Part shown: in pieces, positions 18,746 through 24,366 of the stretch
How positions within the stretch are numbered: the first letter of the stretch is position 1
Layout: each line of letters begins with the position of its first letter
DNA from: Blastopirellula sp. J2-11
GTDB taxonomy: Bacteria > Planctomycetota > Planctomycetia > Pirellulales > Pirellulaceae
Assembly (NCBI RefSeq): GCF_024584705.1
Contig: NZ_CP097384.1
Coordinates: forward strand, 2,790,001-2,854,000
Reading direction: 5' to 3'
Length of the DNA: 64,000 nucleotides
Translations under genes and position numbers: made by a program
Notes under the pieces: model-generated
The model's database searches: none
What the model was told of the DNA's origin: nothing
What the model saw: the letters and a program-made list of their open reading frames with translations, nothing else

Positions 18746-18922
18746 CAATCACGAAAAGCGGACCTACCGTCAACAAGGGAGAGACTTTCGTCTGACCGAC
18801 GTGCATGGGCACGTGGTGCATGACATTCTGGCGTGATGGTGACTTTATTCTTTCGCAATGTTCAGCGAGCCTGAAAGAATCGGAACGTTCGGCGCGTTCC
18901 GATTCTGGTTTATCTTACCCGC
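18746..18922 (+). pseudogene. Orphan 3' fragment of a DUF1501 gene with its terminator
   Basis: This stretch encodes [16 protein letters not shown] and continues in frame through the same ending as the DUF1501 protein at 14286-15698, including the stop at 18833-18835. There is no coding sequence upstream to attach to: the match begins abruptly at 18746. Of six coding differences from the parent, four are synonymous, so it looks like the tail of a once-functional paralogue, not random drift of a recent copy. The distal 110 bases are nearly identical, which suggests gene conversion or a later exchange. Confidence 0.8.
18877..18914 (+). terminator. Second copy of the DUF1501 terminator
   Basis: GAATCGGAACG-TTCGGCG-CGTTCCGATTC followed by TGGTTTATCTT, identical in stem to 15739-15767. 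It now stands next to the 3' end of the G8-domain gene and could terminate that gene from the other strand. Confidence 0.65.
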
Positions 18923-18931
18923 GTCGCGTTG

Positions 18932-21118
18932 CTAGTGTCCTGCGTGGGAAGTCGTGACTTGATGTCCACCGCTCGATGGGCCCGAGCCCTCTTGCTGGTG
19001 GTAGTGCAGGATGTGCCCTTTGGTTTCGGAATTGCCGTTCTCATCTTCGGCATGAGCGGCAATTTTAACGGGGGCGCCTGGCTTCACTTGCAAGTCAATG
19101 GTCCAGTCCATTCCAGCGGGGTCGATCAAGCGTGCAGGCGCGCCATTCACGAGGATCTGCTTGACATCGTAATTGTCGGTCGTCAGCCCTTGAACACGGA
19201 TCATGCCGCTGGAAATCGGTTGAACAGACGTAATGACGGTAATGGGGGGCTGATCATCCACAGGCTCGAGGTCGAAGTAGTCTTCAACTCCATATTTGTA
19301 GTCAGCGTCATTCGAGCCCCGCGGAAAGAATACGGTAGTGTTCACCTGCGAAAAGTTCATGCGCAGATGCTCGTGCCGGTGCATGACGCAACGCCATAGC
19401 CCGTATGCACAATCGTGTAGTTGGGCATCTTGGATCTTCACGCAAGGAGAGCCGATGTGAAAGGCCCAGTGAGAATCCCATATCTTCGTATTGCGAAGGA
19501 TAAACGGGTGCTGGTAATCAGGTCCTACCCCTTCCACGTCGCTGTCTTTGTCTTGGAATCTTCCACCCGCGAATCCGCCCAGGTTGACGGCGAATAGTCG
19601 CTGGCAATGAGCTTCGTTGCTGTCAAATCGGATGAACGGCAAAGTCCGAATATCGACTTTTTGGAAGGCGCCGTCAGACTGGAGAATTTTCAGATTCGGG
19701 TCGAAGTCGTCTCGTTCGACCACTTCCAGTCGAAATCCGTCTTCATCACATTCCGCCGCGACGTTTCGAGTAAACGTATTTAGGCTATTCGCCCACCAGA
19801 AGCCGGATCCGAGATTGTTGTCGAAGGGCAAAACCTGTTCCGGCAACGGATCTCCATCCAAAGCTTGAACCGCCAGATTGCGATCGAAGATGTTGTAGAC
19901 TTCCGTTCCATCTTCCAAAAAATAACCGTGACCAACGCTCTTGTAGCCGACGCAATCTTTCACCACCAGGAACTGCGTCCCATGAATCGTGATCCAGCGG
20001 TTATGACTGTCCCACACGGACAGGCCAATCAAGCTGCTCCCGCGCATCGATTGATCGACCAGATGATAGTGAATTGGGTACTTTCCTAGCACGCCGCGTT
20101 TTCCGAGATGACGAAACTCGGCGTAGCTAATCCCGCCGGCGGAATTATTGTGGTACATCGTGTGTCCACGGATTCCATCGGGATTCGCGGATTCCACCAC
20201 GACGTTTCGTGACAGATTCGCAACCTCCGCGCGGTATTCGCCTGCGCCTAAATGATCAAACGCCAGCGGTTTGTCGAGACTGACGATCTGCAGTTTTGAA
20301 TCGATTCCGCCCCACTTACGCATTCGCGTAATGACCCGTTCTTCGGTCGTGGGGTTATCCGCTACGGAATTGTCATCTCCGTCTCGGCGATGACGCGTGC
20401 CGATGTAGCCGAATTGACGTGTGGTGCCGGTGATGATGATTCGATCTCCTACTTTCCACCCCGGCAGAGAAGCAGGCATCACCAGTCGAGATTCGCCCAC
20501 CTTCGCCGTCTGGTAAGGAAGCTTGATCCAAGTGCGCTCTAGCGGAGCGCCATGGATGTCCATTCGTCCGCCGCAACAGACAATCGCAGGACAGGTATTG
20601 GGATCCATCCCCTCTAGATAATGCAGGCGAATCGTCGCCTTATATTCGGCGGACAAGGGAGCTTCCGACGTGCCGATCTCCAAGGCGGCGCGGGAAGCAG
20701 GTTTTACGTCATGGTCGTGTCCCGCTTCGTCAGGAGCATGCTGACAATCAAACCCTGCTTCGCTGTATTGTTCGTTCGCTTCAATGCGAATCAGGCCGAC
20801 TTCCAGACGCGTATCGCGATCGGGGGCGAACTTCAAAGTTCCGGCGATCTGAACGCCGCGAATGACTTGATCAGAATCGACATCATACAGGACCTCATGT
20901 CCGTGTCGAATCACGACGCGATCACCCGCTTGAGGAACTTTCCCTTTTTCCCAAGTGGTCGCCGCAGACCAGGGCCCGCTGGCGGCCGTGCGAAGAACGT
21001 CTGGCGATTGCTGCGCCATCGTATGATGATGCTTGTGATCCTCGGCGGATGCGACAGCGATGTTGAAAGAAGTGAGCGTCAGGAGAAACGACGCGACACG
21101 AAGCGATTTCATGATCAT
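18932..21118 (-). CDS. Secreted G8-domain, parallel beta-helix protein resembling CEMIP/TMEM2
   Basis: 728 residues with signal peptide (MKSLRVASFLLTLTSFNIAVASA) and a His-rich start to the mature chain (EDHKHHHT). A G8 domain follows (residues about 45-170): SGPWSAATTWEKGKVPQAGD, VVIRHGHEVLYDVDSDQ, IRGVQIAGTLKF. Next comes a beta-helix region with motifs I associate with the animal hyaluronan-degrading proteins CEMIP and TMEM2: GKYPIHYHLVDQS near 347, SVWDSHNRWITIHGT, and VGHGYFLEDGTEVYNIFDRN near 395-412. The end is Gly/Ser/His-rich. Starts at 21118 and 21112 are both possible. An extracellular polysaccharide-binding or -cleaving role is inferred. It follows a DUF1559/lipoprotein pair on the same strand (120-base gap). 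Confidence 0.82.
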   Translation of the reverse strand: MIMKSLRVASFLLTLTSFNIAVASAEDHKHHHTMAQQSPDVLRTAASGPWSAATTWEKGKVPQAGDRVVIRHGHEVLYDVDSDQVIRGVQIAGTLKFAPDRDTRLEVGLIRIEANEQYSEAGFDCQHAPDEAGHDHDVKPASRAALEIGTSEAPLSAEYKATIRLHYLEGMDPNTCPAIVCCGGRMDIHGAPLERTWIKLPYQTAKVGESRLVMPASLPGWKVGDRIIITGTTRQFGYIGTRHRRDGDDNSVADNPTTEERVITRMRKWGGIDSKLQIVSLDKPLAFDHLGAGEYRAEVANLSRNVVVESANPDGIRGHTMYHNNSAGGISYAEFRHLGKRGVLGKYPIHYHLVDQSMRGSSLIGLSVWDSHNRWITIHGTQFLVVKDCVGYKSVGHGYFLEDGTEVYNIFDRNLAVQALDGDPLPEQVLPFDNNLGSGFWWANSLNTFTRNVAAECDEDGFRLEVVERDDFDPNLKILQSDGAFQKVDIRTLPFIRFDSNEAHCQRLFAVNLGGFAGGRFQDKDSDVEGVGPDYQHPFILRNTKIWDSHWAFHIGSPCVKIQDAQLHDCAYGLWRCVMHRHEHLRMNFSQVNTTVFFPRGSNDADYKYGVEDYFDLEPVDDQPPITVITSVQPISSGMIRVQGLTTDNYDVKQILVNGAPARLIDPAGMDWTIDLQVKPGAPVKIAAHAEDENGNSETKGHILHYHQQEGSGPSSGGHQVTTSHAGH

Positions 21119-21238
21119 AAAATTTGTTTCCGTATCTCTGGAGAGAGAGAAGCGTACTTGGAGAGAATTGTCAGGGGGCGGAGATCAACGAATGACCTCA
21201 AGTGTTGGTGAGATGACAGTGCAGTTGGGAAGGTCGCA

Positions 21239-21754
21239 CTAATCCACTTGGTCAAAATCAGCGGAATCTGTACGAGGACGACGCGTGGCGAGTCGGACCC
21301 CTGCCATGGTCAGAGGCGCCAACTCGGTGGTGTTTTCGTCGATCGAAACGTGCAGATTCGATTTGCCGGGCGCTGCGTAACGGCCGCCCAATTTGTCATG
21401 CGGATTGGATGAGTCGGGATTGTCGAACCACAACACGGAAAGATCGTATTCGCCTGCGGGGATTCCATCGTCCGACTGATAGGTCGTCATCGAAAATTGA
21501 CCATCCTGCCCGACGATCGCACGAGGGCGCGTTCCGCGGACGTCAAATTCTTCTCCATTGGCTGGGTGAAAGACCAGCATTGCGCCTTCGGCAGGTTTGC
21601 CGTTGATCGCAAAGGTTCCCTTAACAGGGATTAACTCGGGGCGCGGCTCTTCCGGCTGACCGCAACCGGTGAGGACCGTAAAAGCCAGGCTCGCGGCAAT
21701 TAGGCCCGCGCTTCGTTTGGCAGTACAAGCGGCGAATGCAAGCGGAATCAACAT
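21239..21754 (-). CDS. Carboxypeptidase-regulatory-like lipoprotein
   Basis: 171-residue lipoprotein. From ATG 21754 the leader is MLIPLAFAACTAKRSAG and on through LAFTVLTGCGQPEEP, lipobox LTGC. An AGGA about 9 bases upstream supports this start; the frame continues to 21868 but would overlap the gene before it. The mature domain has the same plan as the lipoprotein at 9469 (VKGTFAINGKPAEGAMLVFHP, DGIPAGEYDLSVLWF, DKLGGRYAAPGKSNLHVSI). It is read after DUF1559 with a 58-base gap, so they are likely co-transcribed. Function unknown. Confidence 0.8.
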   Translation of the reverse strand: MLIPLAFAACTAKRSAGLIAASLAFTVLTGCGQPEEPRPELIPVKGTFAINGKPAEGAMLVFHPANGEEFDVRGTRPRAIVGQDGQFSMTTYQSDDGIPAGEYDLSVLWFDNPDSSNPHDKLGGRYAAPGKSNLHVSIDENTTELAPLTMAGVRLATRRPRTDSADFDQVD

Positions 21755-21812
21755 AAAATAGTTCCTACAGGAAGGCGATTGAGATCGTGCAAAGGAGTTG
21801 CTGGACGGTCGT

Positions 21813-22769
21813 CTAGTCTTCACTGAAGACTTCTCCTCCGCTGTAGGTGCACAACGCGATAAAGACATTGTTGTTGGTCGTGTCGCTCAAGAATCGAACC
21901 GATCCATCCGTCAGGGCGACTTCGATTCCGCCGGTATGGAAACTAAGCGGATTGGCCCACTTGTTCGAGGCGTTGATAAAGCGCGGGCCTTTTTTGGTTA
22001 CCCCGTCATCTTCAAATCCATACATCCAGCCAGCTGAGGGGCCGGCCCAATAGTCAAACCAGCCGCCAAACTCCGGATTCGCGCTGATCAGTTCTCCATT
22101 GTCGCGATGCAGCCATTGGGCGCGACCGGCCGATTCGTGCACGATAATCGTGTTGGTCGTTCCATCTGTAATGTCCCGGAACTTGCGGCCCGTTCCGCCG
22201 CCGCCGAAGACGCCCAGATGATTCGTGCTGCCTGCGCCGGGTGCATAAATCGCATGGGTGCTGCTATGGATTCCCCGTTGGCCTGCATAGTCGGTCGTCC
22301 AGCCTCCGCGATCAGAATCGATATTAAAGCCGGACGAGTCGCGATAACGAAGCTCGGGAGTCAGTTGCGTGCCTCCCGGAGTCGATGGGCACTCAAAAAC
22401 GTTTAACTTCGTTTCGATCGCTTCTTGATTCTTGACATCAAAAAACGCGTAGTTTTGGTCATAGAGATTCGCCAGCGCAGATTGCTCAAAGTACGGCAAC
22501 AAACAGGGGATCCAGCTGTTGTAGTAATAGTTTCCGTCAGGATACTCGGAGACGTACGACTCCAGCGGGAAAGTGCCGTGCGTTCCTGCATAGTTGTGTA
22601 ACGCCAGCCCAATCTGCTTCAGATTATTGCTGCACTGCATCCGCCGTGCAGCTTCGCGAGCTTGTTGAACGGCAGGTAGCAAAAGCGCAATCAGAACGCC
22701 GATGATCGCAATGACCACGAGCAATTCGACGAGCGTAAATCCTCGCGGGGACTGGTGTGGGCGTGACAT
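21813..22769 (-). CDS. DUF1559 pseudopilin-like protein (second copy)
   Basis: 318 residues, same size as the copy at 9976. The prepilin-type leader is [19 protein letters not shown], cleaved before FTLVE, then [22 protein letters not shown]. The DUF1559 tail motif is FHTGGIEVALTDGSVRFL (H-x9-DG). It heads a leftward set with a lipoprotein and the G8-domain protein. A Fur-box-like dyad and a plausible promoter are just upstream (22871-22922). Here the DUF1559 gene comes first and the lipoprotein second, the reverse of the 9.5-10.9 kb pair. Confidence 0.92.
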   Translation of the reverse strand: MSRPHQSPRGFTLVELLVVIAIIGVLIALLLPAVQQAREAARRMQCSNNLKQIGLALHNYAGTHGTFPLESYVSEYPDGNYYYNSWIPCLLPYFEQSALANLYDQNYAFFDVKNQEAIETKLNVFECPSTPGGTQLTPELRYRDSSGFNIDSDRGGWTTDYAGQRGIHSSTHAIYAPGAGSTNHLGVFGGGGTGRKFRDITDGTTNTIIVHESAGRAQWLHRDNGELISANPEFGGWFDYWAGPSAGWMYGFEDDGVTKKGPRFINASNKWANPLSFHTGGIEVALTDGSVRFLSDTTNNNVFIALCTYSGGEVFSED

Positions 22770-23127: not shown

Positions 23128-23865
23128 TTAATCTTTGTCAGCGACGACCATGTAATGGCGCGGCATGGTCTCTGGTGCGACTTGAGCGCGAAAGCCTGCG
23201 GCTTCGAGTTCTTGTTTGACCTGTTCCGGGGGGACGCGCATTTCTTTAGGCGGTCCGATCTCTCCATCGATTACTGACTCGACGATAACAAGTCTGCCGT
23301 GTGGTTTGAGTGCTAGAAAGATCTTCTTGGCATAGTCCAAGCGTTCGCCCATGTGATGCCAAGTGTCGAGAATTAGGATCGCGTCAGCACTCTCGTTAGG
23401 CAGATGAGGGTCATTGGGACTGGCTTTCTGCGGTATGACTGTCGCCGGTCGCAGTTCCTCAACGCGGTTTGAAAGGTACGCGAGCATCGCGTCCTCGGTG
23501 TCGACGGCGATGACCGTTCCCCCCTTGCCTACCGCATTGCTTAAGTGCGCCGCCATGTAGCCTGTCCCGGCGCCGATATCCGCGACCGTCGCCCCCGGTT
23601 TTAAAGCCAGCGCCGCAACGATTTCCTCCGGGTGTTGCCATTGGTCCCGTTGCGGATCGTTCCATTTCTTGGCAAGTTCTGCGGGGTCAGCGAAGGCGTG
23701 GTGATGATGGTGATCTTCGTGCATGGGTTGTTTTTCCTGTCTGGATTCCTGCGGGCTGGCCTTGTCGTCGTGGACCTCCGTCATGGCGGTTTCTTTGCGC
23801 TGGCTACAGCCTGCGATGCTGACCGCAATGGAGATTACGAGAATGAGAATGGCGCGGTTCTTCAT
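23128..23865 (-). CDS. Class I SAM-dependent methyltransferase, predicted lipoprotein, with His5 run
   Basis: 245 residues. The leader MKNRAILILVISIAVSIAGC is a lipoprotein signal (lipobox IAGC, Cys20), followed by a charged linker and a run of five histidines at 52-56 (MHEDHHHHHAF). The catalytic domain has the SAM-binding motif ATVADIGAGTGYMAAHL near 95, an acidic VIAVDTEDAM end of strand 2, and ADAILILDTWHHMGERLDY as motif IV. Export of a SAM-dependent enzyme is odd, since SAM is cytoplasmic. The His run suggests metal binding. It is downstream of the Rrf2 gene by 32 bases and probably co-transcribed. Substrate unknown. Confidence 0.8.
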   Translation of the reverse strand: MKNRAILILVISIAVSIAGCSQRKETAMTEVHDDKASPQESRQEKQPMHEDHHHHHAFADPAELAKKWNDPQRDQWQHPEEIVAALALKPGATVADIGAGTGYMAAHLSNAVGKGGTVIAVDTEDAMLAYLSNRVEELRPATVIPQKASPNDPHLPNESADAILILDTWHHMGERLDYAKKIFLALKPHGRLVIVESVIDGEIGPPKEMRVPPEQVKQELEAAGFRAQVAPETMPRHYMVVADKD

Positions 23866-23898
23866 TGGACTGTCACCGATTCATGGGGCTCTGTTCGT

Positions 23899-24366
23899 TC
23901 AAGAGGCATCCTGCGCTTCTTGACATTTAGGGGACTTTTCACGAGCAATGAGGCGAGCCTGATAGTCGGCGCTCAGCATGGCCAGCGTGACTTCGCCCAG
24001 GCGCGAGAGCAGTAACTCCTCGGCGTCATCAAACGTCTGTTGCAAGGCGGTATTTACGGCTTGCTCAACCAGACAGCCGGGCGCTTCCGTGCGATTGCCG
24101 ATAGCGAGCAGCGAAGGGCTGCCCAACGCAACATAGATATCGCGTAGCGTCACCTTCGATAGGTCGCACGATACCGTCCATCCGCCGCCGTGCCCCTTTT
24201 CCGATTGCACATAACCTTGCTGCCGGAGGCCGGCCATGATTCGTCGGATTACCACCGGATTGGTGCCCATCATTTTGGACAAGTCTTCCGAAGTAACGGG
24301 CTTCGCCTGCTCGGCCATGTGGAGCAGGATGTGAAGCACGCCCGATAATTTGCTGTCGCGTCTCAT
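23899..24366 (-). CDS. Rrf2-family transcriptional regulator
   Basis: 155-residue winged-helix regulator: LSGVLHILLHMAEQ, SEDLSKMMGTNPVVIRRIM as recognition segment, then the wing GYVQSEKGHGGGWTVS, typical of Rrf2 proteins such as YwnA. IscR/NsrR-type members bind an Fe-S cluster through three cysteines; here only one is found in the corresponding loop (APGCLVEQA), with another near the C-terminus (KCQEAQ), so a cluster is unlikely and a thiol switch is possible. It heads a two-gene unit with the methyltransferase lipoprotein. A dyad covering its own start codon suggests autorepression. Confidence 0.88.
   Translation of the reverse strand: MRRDSKLSGVLHILLHMAEQAKPVTSEDLSKMMGTNPVVIRRIMAGLRQQGYVQSEKGHGGGWTVSCDLSKVTLRDIYVALGSPSLLAIGNRTEAPGCLVEQAVNTALQQTFDDAEELLLSRLGEVTLAMLSADYQARLIAREKSPKCQEAQDAS

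Follow-up and report, generated by a model that had tools for sequence, protein, structure and literature searches.

The planctomycete Blastopirellula sp. J2-11 carries, within a 64,000-nucleotide stretch of contig NZ_CP097384.1 (positions 2,790,001 to 2,854,000; the window), three genes that point leftward on the minus strand, as do all features given below unless noted. From upstream to downstream they encode a DUF1559 pseudopilin-like protein of 318 residues (21813-22769), a lipoprotein of 171 residues counted from its ATG and of the small type that follows DUF1559 genes (21239-21754), and a secreted 728-residue protein with a G8 domain and a beta-helix (18932-21118). These open reading frames (ORFs), separated by gaps of 58 and 120 bp, are as the initial annotation of this DNA described them. 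We found that the 728-residue protein belongs to the CEMIP/TMEM2 beta-helix superfamily (PF24606) and that DUF1559, lipoprotein, and CEMIP-like gene form a conserved, inherited three-gene unit whose recurrence exceeds chance. We lean, with moderate confidence, towards the view that the unit yields a metal-dependent, secreted beta-helix protein that acts on a polysaccharide and is displayed by the pseudopilin and the lipoprotein.

The superfamily assignment is supported by both sequence and fold. In a Pfam scan, the 728-residue protein matched PF24606 (CEMIP_beta-hel) at E 4.6e-39 (134.8 bits, cut-off 27.3) over residues 318-506 (19601-20167) and, ahead of the beta-helix, PF10162 (G8) at E 1.8e-17 (63.8 bits, cut-off 22.9) over residues 55-200 (20519-20956). 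Human TMEM2 (8c6i) is the only solved relative by sequence, with E 6.2e-18 in a single-protein search and E 1.3e-55 for a profile of 25 sequences that included the window protein and covered the beta-helix core over 333 profile positions. An AlphaFold2 model built from a 56-sequence input (mean predicted local distance difference test score, pLDDT, 88; predicted template modelling (TM) score 0.88) again had TMEM2 (8c6i_A) as its best Foldseek match, at E 1.7e-19 and a TM-score by query of 0.51; the root-mean-square deviation of 7.2 over 788 alignment columns means that the domains are not all alike. Next in rank came polysaccharide lyases, tailspikes, and glycoside hydrolases with low TM-scores. 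The K1 capsule lyase 7w1c and glycoside hydrolase families GH110 and GH87 share the right-handed parallel beta-helix of the window protein, yet their TM-scores by query are about 0.12-0.24 and their identities near 10%. A putative Sec-type signal sequence (residues 1-25, ...VASA^ED; 21044-21118) was judged by eye. The copy in Blastopirellula marina DSM 3645 is 96% identical and has an open frame of 730 residues. The initial annotation had recognized the superfamily from the G8 domain and from the motifs GKYPIHYHL and GHGYFLEDGTE, which are residues 345-353 and 396-406 of the protein. That recognition is borne out by PF24606 and PF10162 scores above cut-off and by TMEM2 being the best match by profile and by fold, and the PF24606 match rules out a G8-only protein with an unrelated C-terminal fold. 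Kinship with animal hyaluronan degraders, also proposed, holds as far as the shared superfamily, but the window clade lies apart from the TMEM2 group and the lectin insert of TMEM2 is absent.

Relatives of the CEMIP-like protein are patchily distributed. Within the same family, 48 of 199 genomes have PF24606 at E 0.001 (47 over the cut-off); within the same phylum, 30 of 392 do (27 over the cut-off), and among 14 control genomes Deinobacterium chartae alone does. When GTDB species genomes were scanned, 325 relatives were confirmed, and the best 80 of them are nearly all from Planctomycetota or Verrucomicrobiota according to their record titles. In a tree of the beta-helix, the window clade comprises 22 representatives (support 99/96) and lies apart from the other group, whose 17 rows (support 96/92) are TMEM2 and 16 bacterial proteins. 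The window protein belongs to a Planctomycetota/Verrucomicrobiota clade, and the bacterial companions of TMEM2 lie outside it. Since TMEM2 is a long branch and the sole animal row, and four rows fill less than half of the columns, exact places in this tree are unsure. The bacterial members of the TMEM2 group (L003-L011, L032-L035, L037, L040, and L048) have the same beta-helix, mostly in longer open frames, and 13 of the 16 keep H350, H352, H379, and E402 (window numbering), the exceptions being L010, L011, and L033. The same-phylum proteins nearest to human TMEM2 in the tree are L037/L086 (G301), L040 (G403), and L048 (G367); they may offer a clue to where animal CEMIP came from, but their branches are long. 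One CEMIP-like gene, in L068 (8854-11352), is broken into two ORFs of 512 and 310 residues.

Which residues might do the work in such a protein? A set of histidines and glutamates stands out by its conservation: H319 (20162-20164) and, just downstream, H350, H352, R374, H379, H397, E402, D403, E406, and N409 in the stretch of residues 350-409 (19892-20071). None of the ten varies in any of the 25 sequences that the Pfam profile retrieved. Across 105 family sequences, H319, H350, H352, H379, H397, E402, E406, and N409 are unvarying; the 80 kept relatives, and hence most of these sequences, were fetched with patterns containing H350, H352, E402, E406, and N409, whereas H319, H379, and H397 are in no fetch pattern of this set and so are free of that bias. 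More distant relatives were tallied by a profile search of 64 loci, which gave 32 family members and 29 distant rows (L057 and L058 had no match and L056 fell below inclusion). Of the distant rows, 26 were counted as distinct, because L086 equals L037, L087 equals L036, and L175 looks like a repeat of L174. L173, L174, and L176, from a viral collection, had been fetched with patterns that include H379 and E402, which leaves 23 of the 26 without that bias. Of these 23, 18 have the full set of H350, H352, H379, and E402, and 17 have H397. L010, L011, L033, and L051 lack one or more of H350, H352, and H379 and are possibly non-metal paralogues; L054 has D at 402; L050, L052, L053, and L055 retain H350, H352, H379, and E402 and have lost R374 and H397. 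H350, H352, H379, and E402 are likewise present in the three distinct sequences from the viral collection, which had been fetched by motif. In the window model, H319 is on predicted strand 319-322, H350 and H352 on 349-355, and H379 on 376-381, with H397 and E402 flanking 399-401, so that the conserved histidines would sit on neighboring rungs of the beta-helix, as expected. As a separate observation, the viral-collection contigs L173 (4569-7280), L174, L175, and L176 all encode CEMIP-like beta-helix frames; L173 and L176 keep H319, H350, H352, H379, H397, and E402, and L174/L175 have N at 397.

TMEM2 provides the link from this set to a metal. It shares all ten residues, and the equivalents of H350/H352/R374/H379/H397/E402/D403/E406/N409 are H550/H552/R580/H585/H603/E608/D609/E612/N615; full-length numbers are 8c6i chain positions plus 82, a conversion checked by chain Cys472, which is the unpaired Cys554 of the crystal-structure paper (PMC10206443). 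The refinement table of 8C6I lists one Ni2+ (PMC10206443), and a study of PKHD1L1 places TMEM2 His552 at the Ni2+ site and suggests that it might mediate catalysis (PMC11043200). Metal binding at the conserved set rests on this one published statement about TMEM2; by analogy, the bacterial protein would bind metal with the same residues. The crystal paper assigns no active site to TMEM2 and, in the passages covered here, does not discuss this Ni2+ (PMC10206443). PKHD1L1 and fibrocystin, likened to the window protein via TMEM2, are huge membrane proteins of animals that also contain IPT domains; their TMEM2-like domains likewise have G8 followed by a parallel beta-helix. PKHD1L1 His2479 is the equivalent of TMEM2 His552, and hence of H352 in the window protein, and His2479Gln at this residue is a variant from a family with hearing loss (PMC11043200).

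The window protein differs from TMEM2 in what surrounds these residues. The beta-helix of TMEM2 is interrupted by a POMGNT1-like lectin domain, which bears R265C, D273N, and D286N, substitutions that reportedly cause loss of activity (PMC10206443). The insert has no counterpart in the window protein: the profile runs from 8c6i chain position 165 to 335 within profile positions 200-206, with the flank before the insert weakly aligned at 5.6 bits, and no lectin-like domain came up when the protein was scanned against all of Pfam at E up to 0.1. The positions of R265, D273, and D286 are therefore missing, and hyaluronan activity is not transferable to the window protein. The outcome of the comparison of active-site residues that the initial annotation called for is thus divided, the His/Glu set being kept in TMEM2 but the lectin residues having no equivalent. 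The crystal chain of TMEM2 has 1301 residues against 728 for the secreted bacterial protein, which shows no sign of TMEM2 domain X or of the second lectin domain and instead has a small C-terminal beta domain (residues 620-706, 19001-19261, from predicted strands at 626-706). TMEM2 is the animal protein compared here.

The second pillar of our proposal is the conservation of the trio. Gene order was compared in 81 loci, made up of the window and the best 80 of the 325 relatives. In 15 of them, a DUF1559 gene is found upstream of the CEMIP-like gene, on the same strand and at most 3 kb away, compared with 0 upstream on the opposite strand, 4 downstream on the same strand, and 1 downstream on the opposite strand. 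A lipoprotein homologue stands between the two genes in 14 of the 15. The complete trio was also found in 9 of 32 profile-found family loci fetched with flanks, and in 23 of 113 loci overall when second copies are counted. A family tree was built from 105 of the 113 rows, leaving out second copies L060, L062, L083, and L092 (of L093, L108, L163, and L147), L091 (short), and L068, L071, and L144 (below 600 residues). The 22 rows with an upstream DUF1559 all belong to a single clade of 28 rows (support 97), and the trait requires 6 label changes on the tree against a shuffled mean of 20.2, with none of 500 shuffles as low. Of the six trio-clade rows that lack it, three are Verrucomicrobiota (L101, L104, and L106), and in the other three (L064, L114, and L117) a DUF1559 gene lies downstream instead. 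The association looks old, since the second CEMIP-like gene of the host genome, which falls in a different subclade, is part of a trio too.

Sequence divergence within the trio is matched as well. For 21 full trios, pairwise-distance correlations were 0.92 for CEMIP-DUF, 0.90 for CEMIP-lipoprotein, and 0.80 for DUF-lipoprotein; for 16 non-redundant trios (<80% identity), they were 0.86, 0.71, and 0.53 (permutation p <= 4e-4). The window DUF1559 protein is 70-72% identical to its trio counterparts in L077, L078, L079, and L094 (a Gimesia sp. and three subclade genomes), whereas among the 19 home paralogues listed, the best-scoring is 44% identical and the highest identity is 50%. The initial annotation had counted a failure of the genes to co-occur in related genomes as grounds for rejection. 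They do co-occur in other genomes, in the same order and on the same strand, and the neighborhood survey confines the recurring trio to one clade.

Of the two smaller proteins, the 318-residue one matched PF07596 (DUF1559) at E 2.8e-54 (185.4 bits, cut-off 23.3) and PF07963 at E 4.3e-8, and TIGR02532 and TIGR04294 of NCBIfam scored above cut-off, so that both a prepilin N-terminus and a DUF1559 domain are present. Its model (pLDDT 79) has one long N-terminal helix; against the PDB, the three highest-ranked matches of this model were type IV pilins, though at non-significant values (E 0.27 and above). The 171-residue lipoprotein had no Pfam or NCBIfam match at E up to 0.1; its lipobox, LTGC (21662-21673), was judged by eye, and homologues lie between DUF1559 and CEMIP-like genes in related genomes. 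In Planctopirus limnophila, DUF1559 is the largest paralogue group, with 68 copies, two of them essential, and is described as of unknown function (PMC10632474). Rhodopirellula baltica has 74, called a solute binding protein family, nine of which respond to cold and salt shock (PMC2754498); this solute-binding reading differs from the pseudopilin reading adopted here.

DUF1559-lipoprotein pairs, with the same two genes in the same order as in the trio, are generic in the host genome. Its 6.43 Mb hold at least 151 DUF1559 matches (226 first-look candidates, 150 of them scored; a few share one frame) and 45 matches to the trio lipoprotein, itself counted. Across 20 regions picked by their order in the list, a lipoprotein homologue comes directly after 22 of the 27 DUF1559 genes. 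The pair alone is therefore uninformative about glycans. What sets the trio apart is its fixed CEMIP-like partner; the next gene after other pairs is unrelated. The surface glycan-handling device of the initial annotation accordingly keeps two of its supports, superfamily membership and the conserved trio, but the generic pair adds no glycan signal of its own.

We propose the following mechanism. The trio would yield a DUF1559 pseudopilin, a small lipid-anchored lipoprotein, and a secreted beta-helix protein of the CEMIP superfamily, the last of which would act on extracellular polysaccharide. H350, H352, and H379 would bind a divalent metal from successive rungs, with H319, H397, E402, and E406 assisting the site, and the pseudopilin and lipoprotein would hold or present the beta-helix protein at the cell envelope. 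Catalysis, a polysaccharide substrate, envelope display, and co-transcription of the three genes are what we infer, and a surface glycan-handling function is suggested by the fold. Several points weigh against this proposal. TMEM2 catalysis is disputed: the passages of the crystal-structure paper on soluble TMEM2 report that no activity was found and that the active site is not assignable (PMC10206443), and another paper denies in its title that human TMEM2 is a catalytic hyaluronidase (PMC10276149). The Ni2+ in 8C6I may be an artefact of purification or crystallization. Because of the pattern-based fetching, invariance at H350, H352, E402, E406, and N409 is partly built in, and the 81-locus set is biased towards the window. 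As many as 66 of the 81 loci have no same-strand upstream DUF1559 within 3 kb, 13 of these being truncated near a contig end. Matched divergence shows joint inheritance, not joint function. Nine of the 14 same-strand genes that follow DUF1559-lipoprotein pairs were scanned, and the seven with a match are each of a different family (HpcH aldolase, PhoPQ-related, PepSY_TM, DUF3891, FGE-sulfatase, sigma factor, and GntR). Finally, the recurrent neighbors of CEMIP-like loci, counted with no background rate, point to no substrate.

With TMEM2 activity in dispute, the strongest rival reading is that of a surface protein without catalysis, carbohydrate-binding or structural and stabilized by a metal that the histidines hold for structural reasons, as may be true of TMEM2 or PKHD1L1. 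We regard this as a real possibility, albeit a rather unlikely one. The reported inactivity of soluble TMEM2 speaks for it, and so does PKHD1L1, a stereocilia coat protein whose TMEM2-like domain has the same histidine (PMC11043200). It is harder to reconcile with H319, H379, and H397, which do not vary in 105 sequences, more than folding by itself would usually demand, and with one study that reports intrinsic TMEM2 activity (PMC10474455). A review calls the mechanism of CEMIP incompletely defined (PMC13113925). In a second rival, the gene order is incidental: a CEMIP-like gene has come to lie by chance behind one of the frequent DUF1559-lipoprotein pairs, and the proteins work apart. The abundance of such pairs and the 66 loci that lack the arrangement would allow for this, but the bias in strand and position (15 versus 0, 4, and 1), the restriction to one clade, the matched divergence, and the presence of both host-genome family members in trios despite their different subclades make it improbable. 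That the protein scavenges or stores metal and is no glycan enzyme is, if anything, a little less probable still. Some members have His-rich stretches, a few lie beside a TonB-dependent receptor, and the conserved ligands are of a metal type, which hints at this reading. Such stretches occur, however, in just 9 of 105 family proteins, compared with 8 of 309 other long ORFs, and the beta-helix is a fold typical of enzymes that act on polysaccharides. We also tried the His-rich tails as evidence of metal handling in their own right and set them aside as too weak (2 of 105 in shuffled sequences).

Why would a CEMIP-type protein in a planctomycete matter? How CEMIP and TMEM2 cut hyaluronan, and whether they do, is disputed, and the TMEM2 crystal-structure paper leaves the active site open (PMC10206443). 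In a small bacterial relative that lacks the lectin insert, the conserved metal-type site stands by itself and points to the residues worth mutating, so that the disputed CEMIP/TMEM2 active site becomes testable in a simpler protein, and the trio gives one DUF1559 protein a specific partner. We offer, as a speculation that we think unlikely in its full form, that the DUF1559-lipoprotein pairs of planctomycetes are a general surface-display module present in many copies in each genome, one of which is dedicated to a minimal, lectin-free, metal-dependent CEMIP-type depolymerase. If this is true, CEMIP/TMEM2 chemistry resides in the histidine-metal site of the beta-helix and not in the lectin insert with its reported loss-of-activity mutations. 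Among the matches listed in a search of the open-licence literature, no paper dealt with bacterial CEMIP-like proteins or with the trio.

Genes of the DUF1501, PSCyt/PSD1, and sulfatase families are common in planctomycetes. They adjoin the CEMIP-like genes outside the trio clade, a few of which lie beside a TonB receptor; the largest clusters of neighbors were disregarded, as they consisted of ORFs antisense to the CEMIP-like gene or shadowing it. Hyaluronan was considered as a substrate and not adopted, as the neighborhoods give it no support. PSCyt/PSD1-type cytochrome genes lie directly upstream in L129, L145, L156, and L159, with a 4-bp overlap in three of the four (L156 was assigned by similarity cluster, the others by Pfam). 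A TonB-dependent receptor gene lies beside verrucomicrobial CEMIP-like genes, 8 bp upstream in L106 (by Pfam) and in L101 and L104 (by similarity cluster).

At the window locus itself, a scan for promoters and terminators was dropped as evidence for an operon, since site counts in the region were no higher than in shuffled sequences. Just past the CEMIP-like stop codon lies a 13-pair inverted repeat (18876-18906, no strand assigned), a possible terminator that the scan flags on the plus strand only, its T tract on the minus strand being short. Upstream of the trio by 358 bp are a gene for an Rrf2-type regulator and, separated from it by 33 bp, one for a methyltransferase (together 23128-24366, minus strand); the methyltransferase has a lipoprotein-like N-terminus and a HEDHHHHH stretch.

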